Positions 23,903 to 62,407 of a stretch of 64,000 bases of DNA are shown piece by piece. Position 1 is the stretch's first letter; each line of letters starts with the position of its first letter. The notes beneath the pieces are model-generated. The model was not told where the DNA came from. It searched no databases and worked only from the letters and a program-made list of their open reading frames with translations. The translations under genes and the position numbers were made by a program. The stretch is from an uncultured Saprospiraceae bacterium. GTDB lineage: Bacteria > Bacteroidota > Bacteroidia > Chitinophagales > Saprospiraceae. The stretch is from positions 1 through 64,000 of the forward strand of contig CALJOK010000043.1 in the NCBI GenBank assembly GCA_937981555.1, read 5' to 3'.

Positions 23903-23919
23903 ATAGAATGGAAATTTAA

Positions 23920-24186: not shown

Positions 24187-24192
24187 ATTGAA

Positions 24193-37180: not shown

Positions 37181-37208
37181 TTTTGTTATTTTTAGGGAAA
37201 GTATGATT

Positions 37209-37571
37209 ATGAAAAATGAAATTTTAGACGAAATTGAAAGAGAAATTATATTACCAAGCTTTGCATTAAAATCCTATGAGCAATTTTGGAAATCCATAAT
37301 AATTTATATTGGAGTCCTCACCATATTATTTTTATTGGTTAGTTTGGAAATAAACATCCCCAATACTCTGGCTTTGTTAATTAGTTTAATTGTAGGAATG
37401 ATAGGTTTCATTTTTAATTTTTTTGGAATTTTAAATTTCCAAAAGAGTGTACAGAACAAAGAATATTTTACATGGAAGCTATTAGTTGGAGGCTTCGGAA
37501 ATCTACTATTTTTTCTTTCTTGGATTTGGATGTTGTTTATACGAGATAATTATGTTTCAGGATGTTTTTAA
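37209..37571 (+). CDS. Small membrane protein, copy 1 of a tandem triplet
   Basis: The 120-residue product has a hydrophilic N-terminus KNEILDEIEREI and hydrophobic helices at SIIIYIGVLTILFLLVSL, TLALLISLIVGMIGFIFNFF and LLFFLSWIWMLF. It shares the motifs K/N-N-E/N-ILDE-I/M-E, FG-I/M-x-N-x-x-KS and W-K-x-x-V-G-G/A-x-GN-L/M-L-x-F with the next two genes. No known family recognised. An ATG at 37203 precedes by two codons, but 37209 aligns with the paralogues. The three genes are close-packed and probably cotranscribed. Confidence 0.65.
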   Translation: MKNEILDEIEREIILPSFALKSYEQFWKSIIIYIGVLTILFLLVSLEINIPNTLALLISLIVGMIGFIFNFFGILNFQKSVQNKEYFTWKLLVGGFGNLLFFLSWIWMLFIRDNYVSGCF

Positions 37572-37601
37572 AGACTATCATTTTTTTATAGAAAAATAAT
37601 T

Positions 37602-37994
37602 ATGGAAAATGAAATTTTAGATGAAATTGAAGATCCTATTCAAGAAAGAATTGAAAAGGATGGCTCACCAATTTATGCGAATAAATCGTTTAATCAATTC
37701 TTATTTTCCATCCTAGTTTATATATTAATTCTCGTTAGTCAAATACCTGCATATGAATTTGTTGGAGGAAATTATCTTATAAATTTTATCCTTGGTATTG
37801 GCTTAGGTTTGGCAGCTTTTCTGCTTAATTTATTTGGGATGATCAATGCTTCAAAAAGTGAACGATTTCAAGAATTGACTACTTGGAAAAAATATGTTGG
37901 AGCTGTAGGGAACATGTTATTGTTTCTTCCTTCAGCTATCGGTATTTTAGGATTATCACTTAATGCAATCGTTGATATTCTTGAGTTATTTTAA
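37602..37994 (+). CDS. Small membrane protein, copy 2 of a tandem triplet
   Basis: The 130-residue product starts ENEILDEIEDPIQERIE, then has NKSFNQFLFSILVYILILV, a Gly-rich central helix FILGIGLGLAAFLLNLFGM and LLFLPSAIGILGLSLNAIV. It is the most diverged of the three but keeps the FGMINASKSE segment and the W-K-K-x-V-G-A-V-GN-M-LLF motif. Function unknown. It starts 30 bases after copy 1 and ends 3 bases before copy 3. Confidence 0.65.
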   Translation: MENEILDEIEDPIQERIEKDGSPIYANKSFNQFLFSILVYILILVSQIPAYEFVGGNYLINFILGIGLGLAAFLLNLFGMINASKSERFQELTTWKKYVGAVGNMLLFLPSAIGILGLSLNAIVDILELF

Positions 37995-37997
37995 ATT

Positions 37998-38387
37998 ATG
38001 AAAAATAATATTTTAGATGAGATGGAAAAAGAAATCGAACCACCAAAGTTCGCTCTAAAATCATTCGATCAATTTTGGTATTCAATAATCTGCTACATGA
38101 TTGTACCGATCCTTTTTGAAATATTAAAAAGGTTTAACCTGTTTGATTTTAATACTATTTTATCAAGCTTGGGAGGTTTCCTTTTCCTAGCTACTTTATT
38201 TTTTGGAATGATTGGATTTGGATTTAATTTTTTTGGAATGCGAAATGCGCTTAAAAGTAGAAGGCAAAGTGAACACTTTAACTGGAAAGTTTTAGTCGGA
38301 GGGTTTGGAAATTTATTTTTATTTATTTTATGGATAGTATTAATGTATTACTACGTTTCTACCTTTTTAATTGCTGGTCGATTGTAA
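37998..38387 (+). CDS. Small membrane protein, copy 3 of a tandem triplet
   Basis: The 129-residue product starts KNNILDEMEKEIEPPKFALK and has DQFWYSIICYMIVPILFEI, LATLFFGMIGFGFNFFGMR and LFLFILWIVLMYYYVSTFL. It is closest to copy 1 (both share FALKS-Y/F-E/D-QFW and F-N-FFG). Function unknown. Its end lies 4 bases from the stop of the convergent DUF1456 gene, so the triplet is squeezed between convergent genes without a visible terminator. Confidence 0.65.
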   Translation: MKNNILDEMEKEIEPPKFALKSFDQFWYSIICYMIVPILFEILKRFNLFDFNTILSSLGGFLFLATLFFGMIGFGFNFFGMRNALKSRRQSEHFNWKVLVGGFGNLFLFILWIVLMYYYVSTFLIAGRL

Positions 38388-39203: not shown

Positions 39204-39259
39204 AAACATGAATTTTCACAAACCTTTTAGATATTTGAGTTTTGTGAAAATTCATGTTT
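39204..39259 (-). terminator. Long perfect hairpin at the end of the sigma operon
   Basis: A 19-bp perfect stem starting AAACATGAATTTTCACAAA (39204-39222) pairs with 39241-39259 around an 18-base loop, 15 bases past the stop of the gene at 39275. It is followed on the minus strand by a T-rich stretch. It is probably the operon terminator, although its length also fits a palindromic element. Confidence 0.65.
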
Positions 39260-39274
39260 AAAGTTTAGGAGGAA

Positions 39275-40306
39275 TTAAAATCCAAAACCGAAACTTATCG
39301 AAGGAAAAGCATCAATAGAATCGTCATCAAAAAAATCACCAAAATAAAAATGTCCAGATACAGAAACCCCTTTGGTAGGATATCCTGTAAATGTTAATCT
39401 ATATTTTAAGTCATCGAATCGTGTTTCGGATTCTAATGTTTTAAAGTCCTCTGTCTGAACGAGGCCAAAACTTATACTTCCACGTTTATTTGGCTTAAAT
39501 CCTACTCCGTAGATGTTCGCCATTTCAGGTCTTTCTAAATCAGAATTATATTGATATAATTGTCCTAAAAATAAATAGGCCATACGTTTATTTTTTACAC
39601 CAAAATTATATCCTAATCCAGTATTTATTTCATAAACAGGATTAGACTTAAAGAAACCGATAGTACCACCAATCACCAAACTAAATCGATTGGCAAATTT
39701 TACTTTTTCATATCCATCGACCAATTTACCTTTGGAATAAGAGTAGAAAAATTCATTACGAGGTGAGTTAATTTTTTGACGGAAATTTGCGCCTCTTTTT
39801 ACTTTGGCAAAAGCGCTTTTTATCATGGAGTTGTAGTTTCTTGTTTGAAGATCTTCCAACTCATTTACATAAAAAATCACGTGTAAATTTTCTGTTAATA
39901 AATGAACTGTACTCTGATTATGAGCTTTGACCATTTCGCTATTTTTAACTTGGTATTTTACAATCCCTTTTACCTCTTCAACTTTTAAACTTTGATTTTT
40001 TATATATGTTATGGTGAAAATATCATATCTAGGAACTTGATTGATGACAGAACTTAGGTTGGTTTTAAAATCTGAAATCAAATTGTAAATGTCTGCTGAA
40101 TGTTTAAGTTTTTGAATGTCAGAAGTACCAATTGTTATAAATAATTCATCTTGATTAAATATGTTTAAGGTGTCACCTAAGGTGTTTTGATTAGGAGAAA
40201 AAATTTGATTATATGCGTTTTCAATATAAAGATCCAAGTCTTGAGCTGTAGAATTGGGCAAGAGTATTCCAGCCCACAGAATAACTGTAGTGATTAAATA
40301 TTTCAT
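39275..40306 (-). CDS. Putative outer-membrane barrel protein in the sigma operon
   Basis: The 343-residue product has a signal peptide (KYLITTVILWAGILLPNSTAQ). The N-terminal half (about 25-170) is mixed helix/strand without recognised motif. The C-terminal half (about 200-343) is a series of amphipathic strands such as RFSLVIGGTIGFF, YEINTGLGYNFGV, RMAYLFLGQLYQY, GSISFGLVQTEDF and the final ISFGFGF ending in Phe, typical of an outer-membrane barrel. It is the third gene of the sigma/anti-sigma operon, starting 11 bases after the second, and may be the cell-surface part of the signalling chain. Confidence 0.65.
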   Translation of the reverse strand: MKYLITTVILWAGILLPNSTAQDLDLYIENAYNQIFSPNQNTLGDTLNIFNQDELFITIGTSDIQKLKHSADIYNLISDFKTNLSSVINQVPRYDIFTITYIKNQSLKVEEVKGIVKYQVKNSEMVKAHNQSTVHLLTENLHVIFYVNELEDLQTRNYNSMIKSAFAKVKRGANFRQKINSPRNEFFYSYSKGKLVDGYEKVKFANRFSLVIGGTIGFFKSNPVYEINTGLGYNFGVKNKRMAYLFLGQLYQYNSDLERPEMANIYGVGFKPNKRGSISFGLVQTEDFKTLESETRFDDLKYRLTFTGYPTKGVSVSGHFYFGDFFDDDSIDAFPSISFGFGF

Positions 40307-40317
40307 TTTATATTATT

Positions 40318-41028
40318 TTAATTTTTAATAGGAATCTTAATTAAACTGCTATTGGTTTTTATAGTTTTTTTAGCTACTTCATTTTCATTAATAATGATTA
40401 ATCTATTTTGTTTAGTAGGTTTCTTTAATGGTTTTTTTCCAAAAACAAATTCTATTTTAGAAGGTAATTCTTTTTCATTTGGAGCTTCTTTTTTGTTTTC
40501 AAATTCTGTCATTTTAAAAGGTACTTTGACAGGAACCTCAATGAATACAGTATCTTTTACTATTTGAACCAACTGTTGCGGAGAAATATTTTGACGAATT
40601 AAAATAGTGTCATGTACCAAAACTATTTTTTCAATCACCTCTTTTTGACTAGGAGTAGAAGAAATTATTTTCTCATTTTCTGTTGATTTTGTTGGCTCCA
40701 GTTTTTCAGTTTGAGCAATTGTATTGATTTGGTCAAGTTGAAATTGAATAGAGGTTAATGAACTTTTCACCTCATCATAATCTTTTTGTAACTGTGAATA
40801 ATTTAAATTTTCTTGATCTATTTTATTGGAAAAAAACCAAGCAGTTCCTCCCCACAGAAAGAATAAAATAACTGCGGCAATTTTCCAAAAGTGAAAATTA
40901 TGTTTCCGTTCGGGCACGTCGATCTGATTCCAAATTCCTTTCATCGAAATTTTTTCCAAATCATTTAATTCAGCATTATCTTCCTCAATAATTTTTCTGA
41001 ATAATTTATCCATTTCATTATGTTCCAT
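40318..41028 (-). CDS. Putative anti-sigma factor with one membrane helix
   Basis: The 236-residue protein has a short cytoplasmic N-terminus (MDKLFRKIIEEDNAELNDLE, MKGIWNQIDVPERK), as in sigma-binding domains. One membrane helix follows (WKIAAVILFFLWGGTAWFF, about 46-64), then a coiled periplasmic segment (about 70-110) and a long Lys/Glu/Pro-rich tail. It lacks the HxxxCxxC zinc motif of ZAS anti-sigma factors, so the assignment comes from topology and position. Its start overlaps the end of the sigma factor gene by 11 bases, implying coupled translation. Confidence 0.65.
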   Translation of the reverse strand: MEHNEMDKLFRKIIEEDNAELNDLEKISMKGIWNQIDVPERKHNFHFWKIAAVILFFLWGGTAWFFSNKIDQENLNYSQLQKDYDEVKSSLTSIQFQLDQINTIAQTEKLEPTKSTENEKIISSTPSQKEVIEKIVLVHDTILIRQNISPQQLVQIVKDTVFIEVPVKVPFKMTEFENKKEAPNEKELPSKIEFVFGKKPLKKPTKQNRLIIINENEVAKKTIKTNSSLIKIPIKN

Positions 41029-41551
41029 ATTCTTTTCCTTTATTAAGTTCTTGAATAATGAATTTTCTAGCTTTGAGTAGTTGTGATTTTGAAGTGTTTC
41101 TACTGATGTTTAAAATCTCTGCAATTTCGCTATGACTATATTCGTCAATGGCGTAGAGATTAAAAACGGTGCGATAACCTTTGGGCATTCGCTCTAAAAT
41201 CTTATTCACTTTTTCGATATCCAAACTATGGTTTTCAAAAACAACTGGCTCATCAATAATTATCTCATCTTTGTAATGTATGACTCTAACTTTTTTTATT
41301 GCTTTGATACTTTCGTTGATCGTGATGGTATTTAACCATTTCTTTAAACTACCTGCGCCGCGATATTCAAAGTTCGAAATATTTTTTAGCGCTTTGTTAA
41401 ATACGATGATGACGACATCTTCAGTTTCATGGTGGTCTACCAAATACCTTTTTGCCAATCGAAAAACCGATTTGTAGAAAGTCTCAAAAAATAGCTTTTG
41501 AGCTTTTCGATTTTGGTTGGAACAATCTTGTATTAATAGTTTTTCATCCAT
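41018..41551 (-). CDS. ECF RNA polymerase sigma factor
   Basis: The 177-residue protein has sigma region 2 (about 15-85) with FFETFYKSVFRLAKRYLVDH and ETEDVVIIVFNKALKN, a linker, and sigma region 4 (about 110-170) with LERMPKGYRTVFNLYAIDEY and HSEIAEILNISRNTSKSQLLKARKF, the helix-turn-helix that reads the -35 element. It belongs to the extracytoplasmic-function class and directs RNA polymerase to envelope-related promoters. It heads an operon with the putative anti-sigma factor (overlap 11 bases) and a barrel-type surface protein. Confidence 0.92.
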   Translation of the reverse strand: MDEKLLIQDCSNQNRKAQKLFFETFYKSVFRLAKRYLVDHHETEDVVIIVFNKALKNISNFEYRGAGSLKKWLNTITINESIKAIKKVRVIHYKDEIIIDEPVVFENHSLDIEKVNKILERMPKGYRTVFNLYAIDEYSHSEIAEILNISRNTSKSQLLKARKFIIQELNKGKEYGT

Positions 41552-41704
41552 TGTCTAAAATAGGAATTGATTACGTTTATAAGGAAGAACCATGAAAAAG
41601 ATGTTTTGGGTGTCTGGGTTTTAATTTTTTTTGAAAATAAATAAAAAGAAGTTCGGTACCGATTTTTTTTGACTAAACTTAATGAAAAACAATAATTGAA
41701 TTTT

Positions 41705-42427
41705 ATGAGAAGCATTTTGATTTTGTTGATTTTAGTTTTTTGTAATTGTATTGTTTTTTCTCAAAGTAAAAATACGAAAATGATAATTTATTATATACCT
41801 GGGCAAGGTGCCGATCACCGACTTTTTAATAATATTGAGTTGGGAGAAAATCATGAAGTGCGATTTGTGAAATATGAAATTCCAAAGCGAGGAGAAAAAA
41901 TGGAAGCCTATGCTCGAAGGTTAGCGACTCAAATTGATACGACTCAATCGTTTGTTTTGATGGGAACTTCGCTCGGTGGAATGTTAGCAACGGAGATGAC
42001 CGATTTTTTAAATCCTGAAAAAACCATCATCATTTCGAGTGCAAAATGTCGGAAAGAATTACCTCAACGTTATCGTTTTCAAAGAGTGATTCCTTTGCAT
42101 AAACTTGTTCCTAAAGGAATGATGAAATGGGGCGCAAAAGTAATGCAACCGATCGTCGAACCTGATCGAAATAAAGAGAAGGAAACGTTTAAAAGTATGC
42201 TGAACGATAAGGATAAACGATTTATGAAACGCTCGGTAAATATGATAATCAATTGGAAACGAGATAGTTATAATGAAAAAATAATTCATATACATGGAAA
42301 TAAAGACAACACACTTCCCATCAAAAAAGTGAAATACGATTACTTAATCAAAGATGGTTCTCACATGATGACGCTGACGAGAGGAGAGGAATTGAGTAAA
42401 CTTTTATTGAATATCTTAGCGGAATAA
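41705..42427 (+). CDS. Secreted alpha/beta hydrolase
   Basis: The 240-residue product has an N-terminal signal peptide (RSILILLILVFCNCIVFSQ). The fold shows IIYYIPGQGADHRLFNNI, the nucleophile elbow MGTSLGGMLATEM with Ser in G-T-S-L-G, the acid residue in HGNKDNTLPI and the catalytic histidine in DGSHMMTLTRG. This is a serine-hydrolase triad for an esterase or lipase-like enzyme acting in the periplasm or outside; the substrate is unknown. A TTG at 41696 would add three residues, so ATG 41705 is preferred. It is divergent from the ECF operon and convergent on the cyclase locus. Confidence 0.78.
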   Translation: MRSILILLILVFCNCIVFSQSKNTKMIIYYIPGQGADHRLFNNIELGENHEVRFVKYEIPKRGEKMEAYARRLATQIDTTQSFVLMGTSLGGMLATEMTDFLNPEKTIIISSAKCRKELPQRYRFQRVIPLHKLVPKGMMKWGAKVMQPIVEPDRNKEKETFKSMLNDKDKRFMKRSVNMIINWKRDSYNEKIIHIHGNKDNTLPIKKVKYDYLIKDGSHMMTLTRGEELSKLLLNILAE

Positions 42428-42473
42428 TTTTTAAGAATTAGATGAATTCACTTAGAACCTGATTTTAATTACC

Positions 42474-44519
42474 CTAATTTTTTTGTACAAAATACATTTC
42501 CATTTTCCCTTTTCCTTTAACTTCTATTTGACCTCTATTTTCAAAAGTGAAATCAGCATTTTCCTGAAGCAATTGAAAAGTGTTCTGACTAATATTAACT
42601 TGATTAACATCACTATTGCTTTCCATTCTTGCAGCAATATTTACGGTATCTCCCCACAGGTCATATTGAAATTTTTTAACACCAACTACTCCAGCTACCA
42701 CAGGGCCGGTATGAATACCCACTCTCATTTCAAAGGCTTCCTTACCTGCTGAATTCAATTTCTTTTTTCTATTAAATATAAATTCTTGCATTTCCAAAGC
42801 AGCTAATACTGTTCTTTTTACGCTTTCTTGAGAAGAAGTTTGTAACCCTCCGGCAGCCATATATGCATCACCAATGGTTTTAATTTTTTCAATTTGATAT
42901 TTGTCTGTGATTTCATCGAAAGCCTCAAAACAAGTATTTACTTCTGAAACTAATTGTTGAGCATCCATTTGTTCTGCTGCATTGGTAAACTCCTTGAAGT
43001 CAGTAAAAAGAATTGATACCTTTTGAAAATCTTTAGCAACAGTTTTTCCATTTCTCTTTAATTCTTGTGCTACTTCATAAGGTAAAATATTCAATAACAA
43101 ACTTTCTGAACGATCTCGCTCTGCTTGCATTTTAGCACGAGATTTTCGAATGTATCGTAGGCGGGAATAAAAACCAAGGGTAATCATTAAAAAGAATATT
43201 CCTAGAATTATCAAATTTCTTTGATTCGATTTTCTTCTTTCTTTACTAAGAGCAATTTGCAGTTGAACTTCTTCATCGATTTTTTCCATCTCATATTGGG
43301 CAACTACATTTTTATTATTGGCATTGGATATGGAATCCGAAAGCATGATATATTGCGAGGAGTATTTCTTTGAGTTTTCATAATCTTTTCTTTGGTCATA
43401 GAAATGAGAAAGTTCTTTTTAATACTTTTTTGTTAATGGACCGTTTTCAATTTTAATAGCTTTGTTTAGTGCTTCGTTTAATTTTGATTCTGCAATTTCA
43501 AAATTTCCGAGTTGGTTATGGTAACGATAATAAGCGTAGTCAATTTCATATTCTGTAAAACTTCCACGAATTTTTAGACTTAAAGAGTCTCCTAGTTTTT
43601 TTGCTTTTTTAAGATATGGAAGGCTCTTTATAGGATTTCTTTTTTCCAAATGAATTTGTCCGAATTCTAATATAGTGAGTACTTCCAATTCTAGTAAATA
43701 ATTATCTTGAAGACCAACTCTTTCTATTATTTTTAGATTTTCAGCTAAACTAGCAAAAGCTTTACTATATTCTTTTTGCTTTTTATACAACTGGGCAAGA
43801 GATATTCTTGAAAAACATAAAATTTCATAAAATTTCACTTTTTCTAATATTGGGATAGCTTGATTAGAATAGAATAATGCTTTGGAAGAATTTCCCCATC
43901 TCCCATAGAGATATCCAACAACTGCTAATTCATTACCATAGGCAACTGGTGAAAATTCTTTAAATATTTCTGCTGATTTAAGAAAATAACCAATGGCTGT
44001 ATTATAGTTTCCTTTGCCGAAATAATATCCTCCTAGACGATGGTAGCATGCCCCCAAATTTTCATATGGCCCATTCTCTTGATAGTATTGTAGTTTATCT
44101 GAATAATATTGAAGTCTTTCCTCAAGTGAACTTTGGGTAGAAGTAATTAATACCAGCGGGCTTTGTAAACCCATGACAGCTTTTACTTTATCTTGTTCGT
44201 TAATATATTTTTTAAAATATTCATTGGCTTGTGGTTTGTTTCCAGCAAGAAAAGATTCAACACCTATTTTGAGAATATGGTATTTTTGCAAATCATCTCT
44301 GTCGTAATTTTCAATTTCATTTAAAACCTTTAATAATGTGTCCATCACTCCAACCGTTGTTACAGCTGTTTTTAATACTTGTAATCTTTCTTCTCCCTCA
44401 AGAGGTAATGCCAATAATTGGTATGTAGAATCAGGAGAGCATCCAGGGCAATAATATTGTTGGGAAAAACTAAAAAAGGAAAATAATAGGAAAGATATAA
44501 GTAAGAGGAGGTGTTTCAT
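42474..44519 (-). pseudogene. TPR-membrane-adenylyl/guanylyl cyclase split by one in-frame stop
   Basis: Read as one frame of 682 codons, the gene encodes a signal peptide (KHLLLLISFLLFSFFSFSQ) and about 340 residues of TPR repeats. A membrane helix (NLIILGIFFLMITLGFY) and a class III nucleotide cyclase domain follow, with RSESLLLNILPYEVAQELKR, VSILFTDFKEFT, GDAYMAAGG and VGVKKFQYDLWGDTVNIAARM. A single TAA at 43419-43421 interrupts it after GPLTKKY. Translation downstream of the stop stays in frame (KELSHFYDQRKDYENSKKYS, then MLSDSISN), reading as an ordinary TPR continuation. Current products would be a 366-residue TPR protein (43419-44519) and a 290-residue membrane-linked cyclase (42474-43346). 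A nonsense mutation, readthrough or sequence error are possible. Confidence 0.75.
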
Positions 44520-44669
44520 GTTTAGGTGTTTTCATTTTAGTAAGATTTTATAGCGACAAATTGGTTTGCTAAAATCTTAGATTTTTGGTTTTTACTTTTC
44601 CAAAATAGGCATAAGATTAAATATCTCATAATGTTTGAGAGGGAAAAGATTGAAGTGAATTTTTGAAAA

Positions 44670-45131
44670 CTATTTTTGAGTAATTTTCCTAACTTCATTT
44701 CTTGCCAACTGATCTACCACTCGATTATAATTAATTTCTGTAGTCGCTTTTTGATGCGCTTTTATTTTTGTAAAAATAAGTGGAAGCGTTTCGATTCGTT
44801 CAATTAGTTTTTTTACTAAATCAACATTTCGAATGGGATTATTTTTTTTAGTCAAAAAATTATTTGCCTTTAGTTTTTCTTTTCTTTCTAAAATTCTCAC
44901 CACATATTGACTGTCGGAAACAATTTCTATTTTTGTAAAAGTATTGTTATATTCTTTTTCTAAAAAATCTAATGCCTTAAGCACCGCTAAAATTTCCATC
45001 GCATTGTGAGTAGTATCTTTCACAAAACCTTTAATTTCAATATTTTTTTCTTTTCCTAAGATAATTGCAGCCCAACCTCCAATTCTTTCTTGAGTATGAC
45101 AACTGCCGTCTGTATAAATTTGAATCTGCAT
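44670..45131 (-). CDS. rnhA: Ribonuclease HI
   Basis: The 153-residue protein has the RNase H fold and active site: Asp8 in IYTDGSCHTQ, Glu46 in THNAMEILAVL, Asp73 in IEIVSDSQYVV, His126 in IKAHQKATTE and Asp140 in VVDQLARNE. These correspond to Asp10, Glu48, Asp70, His124 and Asp134 of E. coli RNase HI. It degrades RNA in RNA-DNA hybrids. It is divergent from the GH109-type gene at 45184, only 52 bases away. Confidence 0.93.
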   Translation of the reverse strand: MQIQIYTDGSCHTQERIGGWAAIILGKEKNIEIKGFVKDTTHNAMEILAVLKALDFLEKEYNNTFTKIEIVSDSQYVVRILERKEKLKANNFLTKKNNPIRNVDLVKKLIERIETLPLIFTKIKAHQKATTEINYNRVVDQLARNEVRKITQK

Positions 45132-45183
45132 TTTTGATGAATATTTTAAACCGTTTTTTTATCTTGCCCAAAACTAACAAATT

Positions 45184-46560
45184 ATGGAAAAGAAAATCAA
45201 CAGAAGGAATTTTATTACTACCTCTGCTTTGGCAGGTGCAGGATTAGGTTTGCCAATTAGCGCTGCAGGAGAAGCTCCCAGTTTTTTGCAAAGAAAGGAT
45301 GATCGGAAAGTGAATATAGGAGTGATTGGATTGGGGGAACGAGGGACTGGTTTGACAGGTTTATTATTGCGAAGAGACGATTGTAATGTTGTCGCACTTT
45401 GTGATATTCATCCACCTTCTTTACAGCGAGCGAAAGATCGAGTCGTGAAAGCTGGACAAAAAGCACCTACGACTTTTGGCGATGGAGAAGAAGCTTATCT
45501 TAAAATGTTGGAAATGCCAGAAGTTGATGCAGTATTGATTGCAACACCTTGGACATGGCATGTTCCGATGGCGGTGGCTGCGATGCGTGCTGGGAAATTT
45601 GCGGCGACAGAAGTTTGTGGAGCAACTGATATTCAAGAATGTTGGGACTTGGTGAATGCTTATGAAGAGACAGGAGTGCCTTGTATGTTTTTGGAAAATG
45701 TATGTTACCGACGAGATGTGATGGCTATATTAAATATGGTTCGGAAAGGAATGTTTGGGGAAATGATTCATTTGGAAGGTGGCTATCAGCATGATTTACG
45801 ACATGTGAAATTTAATGATGGGAAAACACCTTATGGCTCAGGAGTTGAATTTGGGGAAACTGGTTTTAGTGAATCAAAATGGCGAACGAATCATTCCGTT
45901 TATCGAGATGGAGATTTATATCCGACTCATGGAATTGGACCAGTAGCGATGTATACGAATATTAATCGTGGAAATCGGTTTATGCATTTGACTTCAACTT
46001 CTTCAAAAGCAAGAGGTTTGCATAACTATGTAGCAGATCATCCAAAAGGTGGGAAGGATCATCCTAATGCTAAAGTGGAATTTAAGTTAGGTGATGTAAC
46101 GACGACGGTGATTAAAACTTTTAAAGGAGAGTCGATTATTTTGAGTCATGATACCAATTTACCAAGGCCATATTCGTTAGGTTTTAGAGTGCAAGGGACA
46201 AAAGGAATTTGGATGGCGGTAAATAAATCTTTGTACCTCGAAGGCGTGAGTCCAAATCCACATCGATGGGATGAGGCCAAACCTTATTTGGAAAAATATG
46301 ATCATCCGCTTTGGAAAAAATTCGAAAGCCAAGCTGCTGGAGCTGGACATGGAGGAATGGATTTTTTCGTGATTAATGATTTTGTGGAGTCAGTAAAAAA
46401 TAAAAAGAATCCACCGATTGACGTATATGACGCAGCTTCATGGATGGCGATTACTTGCTTGTCTGAGCAGAGTATTGCGACGGGAAGTCAGCCGATGAAT
46501 TTCCCAGATTTTACTAGAGGGAAATGGATGAAGCGGAAGCCTGATTTTGCGATGATTTAA
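45184..46560 (+). CDS. Tat-exported Gfo/Idh/MocA oxidoreductase, GH109-type
   Basis: The 458-residue protein has a twin-arginine signal (KINRRNFITTSALAGAGLGL) for export with bound NAD. The Rossmann start NIGVIGLGERGTGLTGL is followed by VVALCDIHP, and DAVLIATPWTWHVPMAVAAM is followed by the ATEVCGATDIQECW segment. ENVCYRRDVMAILNMVRKG and RDGDLYPTHGIGPVAMYTN are diagnostic of glycoside hydrolase family 109, the NAD-dependent alpha-N-acetylgalactosaminidases. Expected activity: removal of alpha-linked GalNAc from glycans in the periplasm. No neighbouring glycan genes are present. A terminator shared with the TonB receptor gene follows. Confidence 0.87.
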   Translation: MEKKINRRNFITTSALAGAGLGLPISAAGEAPSFLQRKDDRKVNIGVIGLGERGTGLTGLLLRRDDCNVVALCDIHPPSLQRAKDRVVKAGQKAPTTFGDGEEAYLKMLEMPEVDAVLIATPWTWHVPMAVAAMRAGKFAATEVCGATDIQECWDLVNAYEETGVPCMFLENVCYRRDVMAILNMVRKGMFGEMIHLEGGYQHDLRHVKFNDGKTPYGSGVEFGETGFSESKWRTNHSVYRDGDLYPTHGIGPVAMYTNINRGNRFMHLTSTSSKARGLHNYVADHPKGGKDHPNAKVEFKLGDVTTTVIKTFKGESIILSHDTNLPRPYSLGFRVQGTKGIWMAVNKSLYLEGVSPNPHRWDEAKPYLEKYDHPLWKKFESQAAGAGHGGMDFFVINDFVESVKNKKNPPIDVYDAASWMAITCLSEQSIATGSQPMNFPDFTRGKWMKRKPDFAMI

Positions 46561-46569
46561 ATAGGATGA

Positions 46570-46616
46570 AGGTATCGGTAACCTTAAAGGTATCCGATAC
46601 CTGACCTGTTTTTTCA
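46570..46616. terminator. Bidirectional terminator between convergent genes
   Basis: AGGTATCGG (46570-46578) pairs perfectly with CCGATACCT (46594-46602), followed by a T-run at 46608-46615. Confidence 0.75.
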
Positions 46617-46617
46617 C

Positions 46618-48957
46618 TTAAAACGTATAATCTCCTCGGAGCGTAAAACTTCGTGGCGCTTCCAAAGTTCCAGGACGAACCATATATTCGTTATTCAAGA
46701 CATTCTTAGTTATCAATGCTAATTTGAAGTTTTTGCTAAATGAATAACTAAACCTGAAATCCAGATTACCATACCCATTGTCATTTTCTTCTCTATATTG
46801 AGCAATTCCAAAAAGCGGTAATTGTAAAGCTCTGTCAATCGATTCCACATTGGAATTGTAAATATATCCAGTACCAACGATGAATTTTTTATATCGAAAT
46901 TCGAGATCAAATTTAAAAGAATGTTTATTTCGATATTTAAGAATATTAGTTTCAGAACTTGATTGAACATCTATCGTGGTGTCTCTATATATTGGATCAA
47001 TATATGTATAACCTGCTAAGAGGTAAGTGGTTACGTTTCCTATTTGCCCAAACCCATTGACACTTAATTCAGTACCAATAATTCGAGTATCACCAACATT
47101 TAGTGATTGGAAGGCAAAGAAACCAAGTGGGACTGATTGAAATTCCATCATGCCTTGATACTCTGACCAAAAGGCTGCAACATCTACATACCCATTCCAG
47201 TTCGCGATTTTGAAACCTTGTTTTATTCCAATTTCAGAAGACCAACCAGTCTCAGATTTTAAACTAGGATTTGGAAAAATATTTAATCCACCAGCATTAG
47301 TAAAAATAAATTGCTCAGCAATAGTAGGGTAGCGATAGCCTTGTCCCCAAGAGGCACGCAGAAATGTTGCTTCACTAAGTTGATAATTTGCTCCAATTCG
47401 AAAGACTGGTTTTCCTTCTGAAATTTTTCCATTAGGAATCGTATCTCTAAAATTTCCTGCAACTATTTCTTCAGGACTACGAGTTGTATTTTGTTCATAC
47501 CTAGCTCCAAATGAAATATTTAATTTGTCAAAAAACTTTTTATCAACTTGAAGATAAGTGGCTAAATTTTGACTTCGATAAGTGGTATCTCCATATAACT
47601 CTGCTTCAACAAAAACAGAATTGGAAACCAAACCTGCCGACATAACTAAATCATGTTCTGACCATTTTTTCTGAAACTGGTATTCACCATAAAAAAGTTT
47701 AGACGTGTTAGATCGATTATCATTATTGTTGTTATTAGCATTGTACCATCTTCCTGTCAGCCGATGTCTGTTTCCTGAGTTATCAAAATAATTTATAAAT
47801 GGATCAATGGTAAATCGAAATCTTTTTGAAGTACTAATGGAACCTCCTAAAGGAGAAGGTCTATATGCTCCTTCGTTTCCATTTTTCCACAAGAAAAAAC
47901 TTGCACTTTCTCCAGGGTTAAAATTTGAATTAAGACCAATGGTCAAATTATCAGTTATTCGATAACGAGTCCCCAAAGAGAATCTTCCATATCTTGAGAA
48001 TGTCTCTTTCCTAAAACTTGATCGATCAAGATAATTACCTCCCAAAACTAAATCTAGTTTATTAAACTTTTGGCGATGAGCAAAATTAAAACCGAATTCG
48101 AATGGTTGATCGGAAAATTTATTTGATTGTTTGCTATAGGTTGAGTCTTCCAAATTTAACTGAATACTATCCCACCAAATTTTTGAAATATCTTTTGGAT
48201 CATCATACATTGTATAAAATGCAGATAGTTTAGTATAAGGTTTTGAAGTAGCGTAAGCAGTTCGCACATTGATAATTCCGTTTAGTGCAGACGAGCCATA
48301 TAACGCAGAAGCGGCTCCTTTTACCACCTCGATTTGAGCAATATTTTCGACAGGAATATCATCCCATTGAGCTAAACCAGCATCAGCTTGCAAGGCAGGA
48401 ATATCATCCAATAATAATAATACCCGACTACCAGCACCATAAGACCAACCTGAACCACCTCTAATATTAGGTTGATTGGATACCATGGTAACTCCAGGGA
48501 TTTTCCCTAATAAGTCATCTACAGAGGTACTATTGGTACTTTCTAACAAACGAGGCTTGAGAACTTCAAGAGAAATAGTAGCTTCTGCTAATGGTTTTTC
48601 ATATTTGCCACTAGTAACTGTGGCCGTTTGAAGGAGGTTAGTTTCGATTCCTAAATCAATATTTAGGACAAGAGTTTCGTCAGCGGAAAGATTTATTTCT
48701 TTAATTATTGTTTTGAATCCGACATAACTAAAAGAGATATTATTTTTCCCAGGAGATAACTTAAGCTCATAATTTCCATCCATGTCTGATGTAACACCAT
48801 TACCATTTTGATCAGAAACGGTTGCAGAGATAAGAGGTTCATTTAGTTCTCTATCCATAATTACACCCTTGATGGTTGCCATTTGCGCAAAAACACTCAA
48901 AGTGGAGAGTAGGAGTAATGTGCTGATAATCAGCGACTTATAGGAGTTGTGATGCAT
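46618..48957 (-). CDS. TonB-dependent outer-membrane receptor
   Basis: The 779-residue protein has a signal peptide (YKSLIISTLLLLSTLSVFAQ) and an N-terminal CarboxypepD_reg-like domain (about 25-105: ATIKGVIMDRELNEPLIS, GNYELKLSPGKNNISFSYVG). The plug domain comes next (VDDLLGKIPGVTMVSNQP, NIRGGSGWSYGAGSRVLLLL, IEVVKGAASALYGSSALNGI), then a 22-strand barrel ending RSFTLRGDYTF. It imports a substrate through the outer membrane with energy from TonB. The absence of an adjacent SusD gene suggests siderophore, cofactor or metal uptake rather than glycan use; the substrate is unknown. Monocistronic. Confidence 0.93.
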   Translation of the reverse strand: MHHNSYKSLIISTLLLLSTLSVFAQMATIKGVIMDRELNEPLISATVSDQNGNGVTSDMDGNYELKLSPGKNNISFSYVGFKTIIKEINLSADETLVLNIDLGIETNLLQTATVTSGKYEKPLAEATISLEVLKPRLLESTNSTSVDDLLGKIPGVTMVSNQPNIRGGSGWSYGAGSRVLLLLDDIPALQADAGLAQWDDIPVENIAQIEVVKGAASALYGSSALNGIINVRTAYATSKPYTKLSAFYTMYDDPKDISKIWWDSIQLNLEDSTYSKQSNKFSDQPFEFGFNFAHRQKFNKLDLVLGGNYLDRSSFRKETFSRYGRFSLGTRYRITDNLTIGLNSNFNPGESASFFLWKNGNEGAYRPSPLGGSISTSKRFRFTIDPFINYFDNSGNRHRLTGRWYNANNNNNDNRSNTSKLFYGEYQFQKKWSEHDLVMSAGLVSNSVFVEAELYGDTTYRSQNLATYLQVDKKFFDKLNISFGARYEQNTTRSPEEIVAGNFRDTIPNGKISEGKPVFRIGANYQLSEATFLRASWGQGYRYPTIAEQFIFTNAGGLNIFPNPSLKSETGWSSEIGIKQGFKIANWNGYVDVAAFWSEYQGMMEFQSVPLGFFAFQSLNVGDTRIIGTELSVNGFGQIGNVTTYLLAGYTYIDPIYRDTTIDVQSSSETNILKYRNKHSFKFDLEFRYKKFIVGTGYIYNSNVESIDRALQLPLFGIAQYREENDNGYGNLDFRFSYSFSKNFKLALITKNVLNNEYMVRPGTLEAPRSFTLRGDYTF

Positions 48958-49329
48958 GTTGTAAAAGATTTGAAAAATTAAGAATTAGATAAACGGATGT
49001 TCATGCTATAGGGTAGGATTTAGGTAATTAGAAAACAAAAGTAGAAGAAAATTTGAATTGTAAAATGTTTTTACCAAAAAAAAGTATCATTTATTTTTTT
49101 AATATTTTTTACTTGAACCAATTTTTTTAAAATAAATTGCCATTACACATCATATTTTTTTCTAACTTTGCGTTACTTATATTAGATTTACCTACCTAAC
49201 TTCACCCAATACTATTTATTGGGCAACCCACATTACAAAATTTATCATCTCATAAATATATCTCCATAATAAAATGGGGTGTGTGTTTATTTTTTAATTC
49301 ATTTATTTAAAAATCTTTAAACTATTCAC
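48958..49329. other. Divergent promoter region of the TonB receptor and T9SS gene
   Basis: No coding frame. CAAAAGTA at 49036-49043 is TACTTTTG on the minus strand, a possible -7 box for the receptor gene. TAACTTTG at 49163-49170 with TTG at 49137-49139 (spacing 23) is a promoter candidate for the plus-strand gene. The resulting leader of about 155 bases contains a small perfect hairpin CCCAAT/ATTGGG (49205-49223). Confidence 0.45.
49137..49170 (+). promoter_or_regulatory. Promoter candidate of the first T9SS gene
   Basis: TTG-N23-TAACTTTG, fitting the Bacteroidota -33/-7 consensus at the upper spacing limit, followed by GCG. The leader would be about 155 bases. Confidence 0.5.
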
Positions 49330-50163
49330 ATGAAAAAATTATTACTATTTAGTTTATTTTCATTCTTTTTGATGAACTCTACCAATGCGCAATCAGATGG
49401 TTGTGTGCCAAATGTACAATATCAAGATTCTACATTTGGAGTATATCCTGCTCCTTATCATGTGGATAACAATCCTGACGGAGGTATTCAAGATACAGCT
49501 TGTGTGAATACTCCTTACTATTTTACATGGACTATTAAGATTCCCGAGACGATTACTATTGCAGGATTTACTGCAACAATTGACTCTATCGTGGTAGCCG
49601 AAACTGGAGCAATCGTTAATTTGCCAGCTGGAATGGAGTATAGTTTTAATCCGACTTTGGGTGTATTTCTTCCTGCAGATTCTTTGGCATGTATCACTAT
49701 ATTTGGATCACCACAAGTAGTTGATCAATATGATTTAAAAATTACGATGACTATTTTTAGTCAAGATTTAGTATTGATTGGAAATCCACAAACGGTGACT
49801 TTACCTGATCCTTTATTTCCACAAGCAGATGGAAATTACTATTTAGAAGTAGTGGAAGAAGGTAATCCTAATTGTTTTGTTGATTCGGCTGATGATCTTT
49901 TGGCAGAATCATTTTCAATTCGAAACTTACCGAATCCATTTAGTGATTTTACAAATATTGAAATTACAGCTGAGAATTCAGATGAATTAATTTTCCGAGT
50001 TTTTGATTTAGTTGGAAATGAAATTCACCGAGAAGAAATTTTCGTAACTCAAGGAATTAATAACCATGAGTTTGATGGTGGTAGATTGGCGAATGGAATT
50101 TATATGTACACGATTGAGAAAAATGGTGCACTTGTTTCAGAGAAGATGATTATCAACCGATAA
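49330..50163 (+). CDS. T9SS-exported surface protein, copy A
   Basis: The 277-residue protein has a signal peptide (KKLLLFSLFSFFLMNSTNAQ). A beta domain follows containing IVNLPAGMEYSFNPTLGVFL and PADSLACITIFGSPQVVDQY, resembling the Ig-like domain that recognises 'LPPG' turns (He_PIG-like), also found in the next gene. The T9SS type A C-terminal domain (about 195-277) reads IRNLPNPFSDFTNIEI, LIFRVFDLVGNEIHREEI and LANGIYMYTIEKNGALVS. It should be secreted and anchored at the surface. It is separated from the next T9SS gene by a strong terminator, so the two are transcribed separately. Confidence 0.85.
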   Translation: MKKLLLFSLFSFFLMNSTNAQSDGCVPNVQYQDSTFGVYPAPYHVDNNPDGGIQDTACVNTPYYFTWTIKIPETITIAGFTATIDSIVVAETGAIVNLPAGMEYSFNPTLGVFLPADSLACITIFGSPQVVDQYDLKITMTIFSQDLVLIGNPQTVTLPDPLFPQADGNYYLEVVEEGNPNCFVDSADDLLAESFSIRNLPNPFSDFTNIEITAENSDELIFRVFDLVGNEIHREEIFVTQGINNHEFDGGRLANGIYMYTIEKNGALVSEKMIINR

Positions 50164-50172
50164 GATTATTAG

Positions 50173-50210
50173 AATTCAGGCGGTCAACCTGACCGCCTGA
50201 ATTTTCAAAA
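50173..50210 (+). terminator. Terminator of T9SS gene A
   Basis: Perfect 14-bp stem AATTCAGGCGGTCA/TGACCGCCTGAATT with a 3-base loop (50173-50203), then TTC and an A-tract, 9 bases past the stop. Confidence 0.8.
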
Positions 50211-50273
50211 GAAAAAAACCTAGCAACTTACCTTCCCTAATTTTTATTTCTTAAAAAATAAAAACCGTTTTAT

Positions 50274-52091
50274 ATGTTGCATAAATTTATACCCCCATAT
50301 TTTTTCTTATTACTTTCTTTCATTTTTGCTTTTCCAATAACTTCACAAAGTCAATGTCCAGATTGTCAAATTTCGCTACCAGGAAATTTAGGGATAGATA
50401 CTATTTATTTAGATACTGTTCCGACTGGTTCAGTTAATTTGGCGTACGCTGAAGATGTCAGTTTTAGATTACCTAAAACAACTACACCAGTTGCTGCGAA
50501 TGATTCTACGATTCAAGGAGGAATTACTTTGGACGAAATTAGAATTTTATTTATTTCAAATTTACCACCAGGGTTGGAATGGGAAACAAACGAAGATGTT
50601 TATTTTCCAGCGGACGAAACTGATGGTTGTGTACGAATTTGTGGAACTCCTTTGGCACCTGGAACATATGTTTTGGATATCGTATTGGAAGTAAAAGTGT
50701 TATTTATTACGCAAGAATCTACCTTTCAAAGAACGATTGTAGTTTTACCAAGTACCACAGTTAATGATGGTTTTACTATGACCAATAGCGCAGGTTGTGG
50801 CGAGGTAACAGTTTCGTTTGAAAACAATGTTCCATCCAATGGGAATAGTGGGTTTTCTTACGACTGGGATTTTGGAAATGGAAATACTAGCAATAGTGAA
50901 AACCCAGCAGATCAGACCTATTCAACTCCGGGAACATATCCTATTGATTATCAGACTGTTATAGATACGTCTGGTTACGTTTTGACAAAAATTAGAGTGA
51001 TTGAATCTGATTGTGCAGATATTTTTGGAGGTGCTCCAGATATTTATTTGGATATCATTGACCCAAATGGAAACTCGACAGTAACTGCTTCAATTGATAA
51101 TACTGATCCACCAGTCGAATTTAATTTTAATATGCCATTGATTGATGGGAATTATACTTTGGTCGTCAAAGATGAAGATGGCGGACTAGGCGGACTTGAT
51201 GATGAATGTGATTTCTATTCCTTTAATAAATTTTCTAATGGAATTTTGGTCAATGGAAGTTCTTCTGTTGAATTAAGCATCCTTCATCCTGTGGATACGA
51301 TTCGGACGACGGATTCTGTTTATGTTTATCCTGTTCCAGATCAACCACAATTAAGTTATGAAGTGCCATTGGCTTGGTGTGAAGGAGAGAATGTATTTTT
51401 TAGTTCTTCCTACTCATCAGGTAATCAATGGATGTTAAATGGTGTGCCAATTAATGGAGCAACTGAGTCATTTTATCAAGCTTGGGAGACTGGTTCTTAT
51501 TCTGTTGTTTACACGAATGGTTTTGGTTGTAAGGCAGAATCCGAGGTGGAAGAAATCATTTTGAATGCTTTGCCAGCAGTACCAACTTTTAATGATCAGG
51601 ATAATATCTTAGAAGTGGTGGTGCCAGGAAATTTGCCAGCTGATTACTCCTTGCAATGGTATTATGAAAATACACTTTTGCCTGGTGAGACTGAATTGAC
51701 TTATTGTATGACTCAATCAGGAAATTACATTTTGGAGGTGACAGATAATGAAACGGGTTGTACGAATTCATTTGCGAGTGATGAAATTTTTAATTCCGAG
51801 TATAATTGTGGTGTTTTAGGAATTGAAGATTTAAGTCAGGGGAGTTTGAAAATATTCCCAAATCCATTTAAGGAAAATATTTATATACAATTTGCTTTGA
51901 CTGAAAAATCTGATTTTAAAATAACAGTAATTGATTTGTTGGGAAGAAGAATTGAATTAGATGCTAGATCAGAATTTGGTGGAGAATTTAAACAATCATA
52001 TTCCTTTACAGATTGGAATGCAGGAGTTTATTTATTAGAAATCGATTTTGGCGATGATCGAATTTATCAAAAAATTGTGTTGCAAAAATAA
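50274..52091 (+). CDS. T9SS-exported surface protein with PKD domain, copy B
   Basis: The 605-residue protein has a signal peptide (FLLLSFIFAFPITSQSQ). Its N-terminal domain (FISNLPPGLEWETNEDVYF, FPADETDGCVRICGTPLAPG) is homologous to that of the preceding gene. A PKD domain follows (about 170-230: NSGFSYDWDFGNGNTSNSEN, ADQTYSTPGTYPIDY), then a further beta region and Ig-like segments (GSYSVVYTNGFGCKAES). The type A C-terminal domain closes the protein (IFPNPFKENIYIQF, DFKITVIDLLGRRIELD, AGVYLLEIDFGDDRIYQKI). It is expected on the surface. ATG 50274 is at the head of the signal peptide. Confidence 0.85.
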   Translation: MLHKFIPPYFFLLLSFIFAFPITSQSQCPDCQISLPGNLGIDTIYLDTVPTGSVNLAYAEDVSFRLPKTTTPVAANDSTIQGGITLDEIRILFISNLPPGLEWETNEDVYFPADETDGCVRICGTPLAPGTYVLDIVLEVKVLFITQESTFQRTIVVLPSTTVNDGFTMTNSAGCGEVTVSFENNVPSNGNSGFSYDWDFGNGNTSNSENPADQTYSTPGTYPIDYQTVIDTSGYVLTKIRVIESDCADIFGGAPDIYLDIIDPNGNSTVTASIDNTDPPVEFNFNMPLIDGNYTLVVKDEDGGLGGLDDECDFYSFNKFSNGILVNGSSSVELSILHPVDTIRTTDSVYVYPVPDQPQLSYEVPLAWCEGENVFFSSSYSSGNQWMLNGVPINGATESFYQAWETGSYSVVYTNGFGCKAESEVEEIILNALPAVPTFNDQDNILEVVVPGNLPADYSLQWYYENTLLPGETELTYCMTQSGNYILEVTDNETGCTNSFASDEIFNSEYNCGVLGIEDLSQGSLKIFPNPFKENIYIQFALTEKSDFKITVIDLLGRRIELDARSEFGGEFKQSYSFTDWNAGVYLLEIDFGDDRIYQKIVLQK

Positions 52092-52119
52092 ATAGCCCTA
52101 TAAGTAGGAAAGAACAATT

Positions 52120-52158
52120 GTCCTGAATTTTCATTTTGAAGATTCGGGACTTTTTTTT
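52120..52158 (+). terminator. Terminator of T9SS gene B
   Basis: GTCCTGAAT (52120-52128) pairs with ATTCGGGAC (52142-52150) with one wobble and is followed by eight T. Confidence 0.85.
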
Positions 52159-52305
52159 GACGAGATTGAAAAAGATCAGTTTATTCTAGATCGATGTTAC
52201 GCAAATAAATTTTTTGAGGAGTTATGAATTACTAAGTAGAAATATACTGGCATGTGATTTGTTTTTGTTAGGTGTTACATCTTTCCCAAAAGAATTAATA
52301 ATATC

Positions 52306-52947
52306 ATGAAGCAACAATTATCCGCGTCTGTACATCCTGTCAATTCTAAAAAATCTAGAAGAGTATTTCTTTGGTTTTTATTGTCATTAGCTTTAGTAGC
52401 TATGCTTTCATTGCCTAGTTTTTCGAATCCGGAACTAACAGCTAGTTCTTCTATTTTGCCATTTTCCAAATCTACTTCCTTTGAAGCAACAACTATTAAT
52501 TGTAAAATTAATAATACGATAGCAAAAGGTTTTTCATCAAAAGAAGCCAGTTTCTTTAAGATGGAACAATCAGAAGGTGTTTTTGCAAAAGTGCTAAATA
52601 TGAGTTTAGAAGATGGAGATGGAAATTTATTTGCATTGAGTTTGACGGACTTAGAAAATGCGAAAATGGATTCTTGTTTGACTTCCAATATTTTTTATGG
52701 AAATGAACATGATAATAGTGATCTAAATTTTTCTAACGATATAGGCACTACTAATTTTACGAATAATAGTAGTTTGATTTTTGAGAAAAATGATGGAGTT
52801 TCATTTATTAGTCGAGATGGTTGGATAAAAATTAACCGTTGTGAAAATGGAAGAATATCAGGCAGTTTTAATTTTAAAATGGAGGAGGAGAAGTCAACTA
52901 AAGTACTAGAGGGAGATTTTGTAAATGTATTGTTAAATGTAGAGTAG
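52306..52947 (+). CDS. Secreted or membrane-anchored protein of unknown function
   Basis: The 213-residue product has a 20-residue hydrophilic N-terminus (KKSRRVF at its end) then a hydrophobic helix FLWFLLSLALVAMLSLPSF, acting as a signal anchor or long signal peptide. The mature part has short beta-like segments, such as ASFFKMEQSEGVFAKVLNMS, LFALSLTDLENAKMDS and ISGSFNFKMEEEKSTKVLEG, the last resembling edges of small beta-sandwich proteins. No family recognised. It ends 53 bases before a terminator shared with the OmpA-SPOR gene. Confidence 0.5.
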   Translation: MKQQLSASVHPVNSKKSRRVFLWFLLSLALVAMLSLPSFSNPELTASSSILPFSKSTSFEATTINCKINNTIAKGFSSKEASFFKMEQSEGVFAKVLNMSLEDGDGNLFALSLTDLENAKMDSCLTSNIFYGNEHDNSDLNFSNDIGTTNFTNNSSLIFEKNDGVSFISRDGWIKINRCENGRISGSFNFKMEEEKSTKVLEGDFVNVLLNVE

Positions 52948-53000
52948 AACTTACTCAACCATTACATTAATTGATATTGAACAGTCCAATTAATTTATAA

Positions 53001-53045
53001 AAAAAACATCCCGTATTTTTCGAAATGAAAAATCGGGATGTTTTT
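53001..53045. terminator. Bidirectional terminator
   Basis: AAAAACATCCCG pairs with CGGGATGTTTTT, and an inner ATTTTTC/GAAAAAT stem extends the hairpin. It lies between convergent stops at 52947 and 53078. Confidence 0.9.
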
Positions 53046-53077
53046 ACTTTGATGATGATTATTAAAGTGTTCTGAAT

Positions 53078-56426: not shown

Positions 56427-59400
56427 TTATCTGTAAATGTTAACTGTTCCTTTGAATGGATTAGGATCATTTGCAGTTGTTTTGAAAATATAAAAGTAAG
56501 TTCCATCAGGTAGTTCTTCATTATTGTACGTGCCTTCCCAATCATTGTTGTAGGGGGCAGCCCGATATACTTCATCTCCCCATCGGTTTAAAATAACTAC
56601 TTCGTTCTCTGGGCTATCTTTGATACAAGAGATTTCCCAAGTGTCATTCATTCCATCTCCATTAGGAGTAATTACAGTAGGGATGATGCATTCGTCCGTC
56701 TCAATTGAAAGGGTAACAATTGCCCACCGACAAACTTCTTGTCCGTCGCAATCCAAGCATATTTCATAAATAAACTGGTCGTCTCCAAGGAATCCATTAT
56801 TTGGTGTGTAATCAAACGTTCCATCACCATTGTTGATTAAGATTCCATCGCTGACATCAGAAGTAACATTGATGGTGAAAATTCCAGGCAATGATCCAGG
56901 AATTGTTTCATTAGCAATTACTGAAAAGTCAGTTAAGGGAGTATTTAATTCAACTGTGAAAAAATCTGGTTCTACATTCGCTGGAGAGCTAACGATGACT
57001 CCTTCGCTTGAAGAACTTTCACAGCCATTTACGAAGACAGTATAGGTATAGAGATTAAATCCGTTTTGAGTAGGAGTGATGGTAATTTCGCTTTGGTTTA
57101 CATTTGTAGGGAGTCCAGGTCCATTTCCAGTTGCTGTCCAAACCATAGAATCTACAGGCACAGAAACACCAGTTAAAGTACATGATTCTCCAACACAAAC
57201 ATGATCTCCACAAGTTGAAACGATAATTGGTGCAGTAGGGATATTAGTAATTTGAATAAACTCGCATATTTTGTTGGAACATCCATCAGCCTCAAATACT
57301 TCTACACAATATTGTCCTGAAGCAGAATCGGTTGCATTAAAAATTAAGGTATTTTGATCATTACTAAAAACTGTTCCCGCAGGATTTGTCCAAATAAAAC
57401 TATCAACAGTTACTGCATTGGTTACTTGAACAGATAATGGAATATTGGTTGTTCCATCAACACAATTAGTAGTATTAGCAATCATGGCTAATTCTGGCCC
57501 TTGTGAAACGACAATCGCCACACTATCAATCGAAGTACAATTAGTTACTGGATTAGTTACTGTTACAATGTATGTTCCTGCATCTTCCAAAGTTAAATTG
57601 TCAAGAAGTGGATTTGCAATACAAGGAATCGTTCGATTAGGATTCGGACCAGTCCAACAAATAATTGCTCCAGGGACCGAAGTAAAAGGATCAGCAAAAA
57701 GCTGTGTGCTTCCTGCTGTACAAACTGTATCAGGAGTAGCGGTAACATTTAATCCTACAAATGAAGTAACTGTAATAGTGGTTTCGCAGAGAGTGGTACT
57801 CATATTTCCAGAATCATCCGTTGCGATGAATTGAATTGTATGTTGTCCAATTCCCAAAGTATCTCCACTTTCAATTATACCACTTGATGTGATTGTAGGA
57901 ATACCACAATTATCATTACCTGCTGGGTTATTAAAAAAGACAATGACAGAGTCACATCCTAGAGGGGTTGTTGCTATTGGATCAATAAAATCAGATGAGT
58001 TAGGATCGATAATATCTCCATTGGTAGAAATTGTTACATCAATAGGACAAAACACACTTGGTGCTAAGGTATCCAAAACGGTTACATTAAAAGTACAAGT
58101 TGAAACATTTCCACTTGCATCAGTTGCAGTTATTTCTACAGGGAAAGTTCCTAATGAAAAAGTATTTCCTGAAGGAGGAATTGAAACAACTGTTGGATTT
58201 GCATCGCAATTGTCCATAACTGTTGGCATATCCCAAGTTATAGAAGCAGTACAGCCATATAAAATAGTATCAATTGGACAATCTGTCAAAACTGGTGCCT
58301 CAGTATCAGCTACTGTAATATCAAAAGAACAATTGGAAACATTTCCACTTGCATCAGTAGCGGTATAAGTTACGGTAGTTGTTCCTATCGTAAAGGCAGT
58401 TCCCAAAGGTGGAACAGCAACAATGTTTACATTATTATCACAATTATCAGTAATTGTTGGTTCTGTCCAAATTGCAACAGTATCACAATTAATACCTGAA
58501 GGAATAGTCATATCAGTAGGGCAAGTGGTAAATACTGGAACCTCTATATCACTAACTACAATATTAAATTTACAAGAATCAATATTTCCTGCATTATCTT
58601 CAGTATAGTAAGTAACTACTGTAGTTCCTAAAGGGAAAAAATCATTAGGAGCAAACGAACTCGTTACTTGAGGATTTGAATCACAGTTATCAATTGCTGT
58701 AGGAATCGTCCAAAAAACATTAGCTCCACAAATAGGAGAAGTAGTAGAAAATGTTGAAACGTCAGCAGGACAGGTTATAGTTGGTGCGGTAGTATCAATT
58801 ACTGTAATGGTCTGATTTGCTGTAGCGATATTTCCTGCGACATCAATTGTAAACCAAGTTCGAGTTATAATAGAAGAACCTGGTATTGGCCCAGCAGCTA
58901 CTGATTCACTTATTAAACTGACATTAGTTACACCATCACATTGATCCAATGCAGTTAGTGTTGCGACTGAAGGAACGTTATCACATTCCACCGTGGTGTC
59001 AGTTGGAATGTTAGATATTACTGGGCTCTCTTGATCAGTAATCGTTACATCAAATGAACAAGTTTCTGTAGCTCCAAAGTTATCTGTTACAGTATAAACA
59101 ACTGTAGATGTTCCTAGGCTAAAAGCAAGATTTGAAATATTTCCAGTTCCAGATACCGGGCCACTTGTCCCAGTTATATTCCAAGAAATAGTATTTATAT
59201 TATTTGGATCAGAAAGAATGGTCACAGGCAAATCTAAAGTTGCTGAACAAACATTTGCATCAGTACTTTGATTAATAGCCATTGGGCATTCAATCATCAA
59301 TTGATCTTGAATTACCGTTACATTAAAACTACAACTAACACTATTTCCTCCTTCATCTGTAGCGGTGTAAGTAACCATGGTCGTACCTACAAAAAATGAA

Positions 59401-62222: not shown

Positions 62223-62407
62223 GTGTTGGAAAATTACCGATGAAATTATTTTTTTTGAAAACATGTTCGGTCGGGATTAATTTAATTAAAATAATGTCGA
62301 ATATGATCGACAAGTTATACGTGAAAGGTTAAAGGTAGGTTAGCGCTTATTTGTTTTTTTTTGAAAAAAAAATCTAAGCTATCAAGGTTTCGTTTCAATT
62401 TTAAAAA

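Follow-up and report, generated by a model that had tools for sequence, protein, structure and literature searches.

A premature in-frame stop codon in a TPR-membrane-cyclase gene of an uncultured Saprospiraceae bacterium

Two neighboring open reading frames (ORFs) on the minus strand of a Saprospiraceae contig raise the question of whether they are two genes or the two halves of one gene broken by a stop codon. The window that we analyzed is a stretch of 64,000 nucleotides (nt) from a draft genome of 7.25 Mb (117 contigs, 96.95% complete). An ORF caller reports here a protein of 366 aa (44519-43419) and another of 290 aa (43346-42474), separated by 24 sense codons. Translation of minus-strand positions 44519-42474 confirmed the original prediction that both lie in a single frame of 682 codons, which consists of 366 sense codons, a TAA, 314 sense codons and a terminal TAG. 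With the terminal TAG counted among the codons there are two stops in this stretch, one of which is premature, the TAA at 43421-43419 (minus strand, codon 367), and the frame has no other premature stop. The 24 codons from this stop to the next ATG, at 43346, are all sense codons (43418-43347), as had been claimed.

The whole interrupted gene (42474-44519; all features of the gene are on the minus strand) encodes a class III nucleotide cyclase that is preceded by a TPR region and a probable transmembrane helix. Its upstream half, the 366-aa ORF (43419-44519), holds the TPR region up to the premature TAA, with the best Pfam TPR match to TPR_12 at residues 159-227 (43839-44045, E 8.5e-13), and its first residues (about 1-20, 44460-44519) have the appearance, judged by eye from the sequence, of a likely signal peptide. 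The downstream half, the 290-aa ORF from ATG 43346 (42474-43346), contains a linker helix, a probable transmembrane helix (about residues 436-455, 43155-43214) that was recognized by eye as a hydrophobic stretch, and a class III cyclase domain that spans residues 104-288 of this ORF (42483-43037; PF00211, E 4.6e-61). Neither half matches an NCBIfam model above the cut-offs.

In a predicted structure of the full frame, for which the TAA was read as a residue (mean pLDDT 74.3, pTM 0.52), the upstream part is a helical solenoid. The premature stop falls inside modelled helix 360-376 (block pLDDT 87), close to where the TPR solenoid ends and directly before the long helix toward the membrane segment. 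A low-confidence helix modelled between the TPR and cyclase parts (residues 439-478, block pLDDT mostly <70) overlaps the hydrophobic stretch noted above. When solved structures were compared by sequence, mammalian adenylyl cyclases 5, 8 and 9 came out nearest to the cyclase domain (8sl3, E 6.8e-64), and the bacterial structure 5o5k was also matched (phmmer E 1.5e-44); the first Foldseek matches of the domain were 5o5l (E 8.6e-15) and 5o5k (E 3.6e-14). Six positions, D507, K547, D551, D620, N627, and R631, do not vary among the 31 aligned sequences, the window copy included, and we take these to be the metal, nucleotide and transition-state residues of class III cyclases. Assignment of the enzyme as adenylyl rather than guanylyl is presumptive, being based on specificity residues. 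The likeness to bacterial membrane cyclases of the Cya / Rv1625c kind (PDB 5o5k, 5o5l, 7yzk) lies in the cyclase domain, whereas the window gene has a TPR region and one probable helix where those proteins have a membrane part that is presumably multi-pass.

An intact 682-aa orthologue, in a single uninterrupted frame, is present in a sister species (G001, contig C274, positions 9714-11762). The two copies are 79% identical over residues 1-681, with exactly one TAA within the window copy, and this alignment over residues 1-681 indicates that the 682-codon frame is not a chance opening. The TPR and cyclase parts are thus in one frame in G001, but not in one open frame here. In a DNA comparison that covered positions 10001-64000 of the window, the G001 contig was collinear with window positions 39254-54130 at 81% nt identity, and in both genomes the cyclase gene has an RNase H gene as one neighbor and a UPF0227-like gene as the other; the collinear block and the shared neighbors show that the two genes occupy one and the same locus. 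The nucleotide alignment is gap-free across the break (219 of 270 positions identical), and the difference is therefore a substitution within one frame and not an insertion or deletion; on the same ground a frameshift or indel was rejected as the cause of the split. The orthologue was found in one of the four other genomes of the genus. The remaining three (G002-G004, of which G004 is only 66% complete) yielded no orthologue and gave cyclase-domain or generic TPR matches only. Since a single orthologue was found, the change is placed on the window lineage by one relative together with the family consensus. A contig scan with the upstream half alone pattern-matched 47 stretches and there was no relative among them.

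We surveyed more distant homologues in two sets, both composed of best matches and thus biased toward full-length relatives. The first was a survey of 199 genomes drawn from the larger family, with at most five candidates scored per genome, in which 135 genomes were matched at an E-value of 1e-40 or lower. At 28 of the 29 best-match family loci one frame aligns across residue 367, the lone exception being L074, whose N-terminal part is of a different kind. One stop is also present in G048:C86 and in G112:C164, among the family matches listed. The second set came from named genomes, where at least 570 relatives were confirmed and the best 80 analyzed. In 67 of these 80 a single frame reaches from query residue 360 to within the cyclase; eight others have at least 350 aa ahead of the cyclase that show no upstream similarity, four have a shorter N-terminal part, and one is cut by a contig end, leaving 79 that could be judged. 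At the loci of the 12 complete exceptions, no separate frame similar to the first 400 residues was found (E 1e-3). L192, one of the 12, is a protein of 305 aa that lacks a TPR region and begins with a signal-like segment of its own. A naturally split pair of ORFs was found at none of the 29 family loci and none of the 79 judged named-genome loci. Homologues that are normally two proteins divided at this place, which the original prediction had named as the observation that would speak against it, were not seen in these sets.

The fused TPR-membrane-cyclase is the usual form among the homologues examined, which bears out the claim of one gene split by an in-frame stop. It is also common in named Bacteroidota genomes, and the original prediction had described the architecture as established in that phylum. 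Its carriers, among the best 80 of at least 570, include Saprospiraceae, Flavobacteriales, Spirosoma, Runella, Chryseobacterium, Tenacibaculum, and Algoriphagus, and a small number of the 80 carry record titles that name Chlorobiota, Ignavibacteriota or Desulfobacterales. Examples from Ichthyenterobacterium magnum (L160), Spirosoma fluviale (L165), and Chryseobacterium defluvii (L167) have the same order of parts in one protein and are 36-37% identical to the G001 orthologue, from residues about 70-133 to 681-682. Each of the three has one frame across the break point, whereas the window gene is cut in the last TPR. The 31 aligned sequences that share the six catalytic positions checked are family members other than these three. 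In a literature search there was no paper on the TPR-class III cyclase architecture in Bacteroidota among the matches listed, which were judged in part by title.

The residue at codon 367 varies among relatives. In 30 of them the column holds Cys 11 times, Tyr seven times, Phe six times and leucine once, and none of the 30 has a stop there. The original prediction proposed a change from TTA or TAT to TAA. A leucine ancestor is unlikely, since leucine occurs in one of 30 and the column is mainly Cys, Tyr or Phe.

Both halves appear to have evolved under constraint. Against the G001 orthologue (NG86), dN/dS is 0.241 for the upstream 366 codons and 0.120 for the 290 codons from ATG 43346, with codons 392-480, ahead of the cyclase, at 0.195. 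For the 24 spacer codons (43347-43418) dN/dS is 0.083 (dN 0.052, dS 0.622), with 21 of 24 residues the same as in the orthologue (amino acid identity 0.875). Only seven of these 24 codons differ from G001, four silently and three with a change of residue, which is too few for a test; a binomial comparison (five silent of eight base differences, p 0.027) is fragile, as one of the "silent" bases lies within a residue-changing codon, and we give it no weight. Counts of lineage-specific change, summed over 28 non-independent homologues (L074 of the 29 was omitted because its N-terminal part is of another kind), gave 166 window-unique and 179 G001-unique sites in the C-terminal part and 261 and 306, respectively, in the N-terminal part. 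With these 28 outgroups and the low dN/dS there is no excess of change on the window lineage and no indication of relaxed constraint after the lesion. None would be expected if the break were very young, and so the constraint test does not decide whether the gene is dead. Because the stop is the only mark of a dead gene, the break is either young relative to the species split or not real. The original prediction of a recent break agrees with the low dN/dS, the retained catalytic residues and the lack of acceleration on this lineage, with the same proviso.

The frequency of such lesions was gauged from six G001 stretches, using ORFs of at least 100 aa and matches of at least 45% identity. Of 39 G001 ORFs, 34 have a match in the window and the TPR-cyclase alone is interrupted inside the window gene; in a second flagged case (L148:5154-5741) the stop is upstream of the window ORF start at 13053. 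In the reverse direction 35 of 52 window ORFs, with the two halves counted as two, match the G001 stretches. The window ORF at 49330-50163 is frameshifted in G001 and the doubtful ORF at 23873-24274 has two stops there. Isolated lesions are thus present on both sides.

The frame and its stop, the syntenic intact orthologue, the fused form usual among homologues and the catalytic residues kept in the window copy were all read directly from the sequences. We consider it likely that the locus carries a recent nonsense allele that disables a TPR-membrane-cyclase, in a genome with other cyclase genes.

The explanation that survives best beside this one, although we regard it as unlikely, is a consensus error or a strain mixture, in which case the base would be absent from most cells and the gene intact. 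It is consistent with the fact that no decay is seen beyond the single base, with the near-normal constraint on both halves, and with the draft state of a genome in 117 contigs. However, the difference is a substitution in a gap-free alignment, whereas consensus errors in draft assemblies are more often indels, depending on the platform. Real in-frame stops are also widespread in bacterial genes according to Belinky et al. (2021; PMC7918605), which speaks against an error, although the same source expects that a substantial share of raw in-frame stops may be artefacts.

It is very unlikely, in our estimation, that low-level readthrough or restart at ATG 43346 yields the full-length enzyme or a membrane cyclase without the TPR region. 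As this explanation would have it, constraint appears to persist in the downstream half and in the 24 spacer codons, the catalytic residues are intact and the linker helix, hydrophobic segment and cyclase are all still within the downstream ORF. Against readthrough, there is no anticodon TTA or CTA among 50 tRNA genes called by ARAGORN (one has TCA); these genes come from the regions containing the 47 Rfam tRNA matches in the assembly, which is about 97% complete; 150 of the 613 first-look candidates were scored in that search. In the 64-kb window itself, neither the Rfam scan nor the tRNA scan gave a match. Among window ORFs of at least 100 aa, TAA terminates 33 of the other 51 (34 of 52 with the premature one), and it closes both members of 10 equal-length orthologue pairs, and a recoded TAA was rejected on this basis. 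Against restart, the ATG lies 72 nt after the stop, and its codon (392) is Q in the G001 orthologue and M in only two of 30 relatives; it is therefore not an ancestral start, and a conserved internal start at 43346 was rejected. The absence of a stop from the codon-367 column of all 30 relatives counts against both routes, and the readthrough and restart alternatives raised in the original prediction thus gained no positive support. A related idea, that the stop serves as a switch, regulatory or separating, which releases a free exported TPR protein and leaves the cyclase to be made by restart at 43346 or rare readthrough, is in our opinion very doubtful; if it were true, sensing would be uncoupled from the enzyme and the enzyme kept.

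That two natural genes, for a TPR protein and a separate cyclase, happen to share one frame is almost certainly wrong. In favor of this reading, both ORFs start with ATG and exceed 250 aa, but the orthologue is a single protein, 28 of 29 and 67 of 80 homologues are fused, and the 12 complete exceptions lack a separate frame resembling the TPR half, so that a naturally split gene was rejected by orthologue and homologue architecture.

If the locus is a recent nonsense allele, then the ancestral gene would have encoded one membrane-spanning sensor-cyclase, with an N-terminal TPR region that was probably exported, one transmembrane helix and a presumably cytoplasmic cyclase. A single substitution in the window lineage would have turned codon 367, inside the last TPR motif, into TAA. 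Translation would then be expected to end with a 366-aa TPR fragment that has neither membrane anchor nor enzyme, and the cyclase output of the interrupted gene would probably be lost or nearly so. The break itself appears to be recent. The genome has 10 further matches to the cyclase half, eight of them with E below 1e-13, and therefore loss of the interrupted copy may be tolerated.

A nonsense allele of this type is ordinary gene decay and nothing new is needed to account for it. On its own it is of little weight, as one recently broken copy in a large TPR-cyclase family, and its immediate consequence is for annotation, which should have one interrupted gene here and not two proteins. It is possibly a clean case in which to follow how fast bacteria lose redundant second-messenger enzymes. 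The gene resembles the nonsense-interrupted genes of Belinky et al. (2021; PMC7918605) in having a single in-frame stop with flanks at dN/dS <1; that study reports dN/dS below 1 around shared stops (0.74 for TAA) and that such stops tend to be short-lived. The large-scale part of that work centers on stops common to two or more species, whereas the stop in the window is known from one genome.

Several other features were observed in the course of these comparisons. Among housekeeping-like genes at L259:3800-7602 (G000:C12, about 122800-126600) there are 25 tRNA genes in 3.8 kb. The member of this array with anticodon TCA is 73 nt long, is called SeC by ARAGORN and has a predicted fold with an unpaired acceptor stem; it might read UGA. 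TGA still terminates seven of 46 ORFs across the array and its flanks (three stretches of 20 kb).

In the window itself, the ORF at 49330-50163 encodes a 277-aa Por_Secre_tail protein whose G001 orthologue (L083:4057-4880) is split in two frames, with the C-terminal sorting tail in another frame. Positions 23896-24300 had no Rfam match and align over 409 columns with the end of G001 contig C444 at 89% identity, within a block that is 81% identical as a whole; because G001 has two stops in the 133-aa ORF there, this may be conserved non-coding DNA. A short sequence at 29888-30000 recurs in both orientations across many G001 contigs (identity about 69-97%), in the manner of a dispersed palindromic repeat. 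Three consecutive small ORFs lie at 37203-38387; two of them have G001 matches of no more than 47% and 53%, and at the DNA level contig C441 is matched in swapped order, like a small duplicated family. Finally, positions 58060-58590, within a 1945-aa ORF (56427-62264), match at least seven consecutive places in G001 (L108-L114, G001:C343), which suggests that this ORF encodes a repeat protein of differing copy number.
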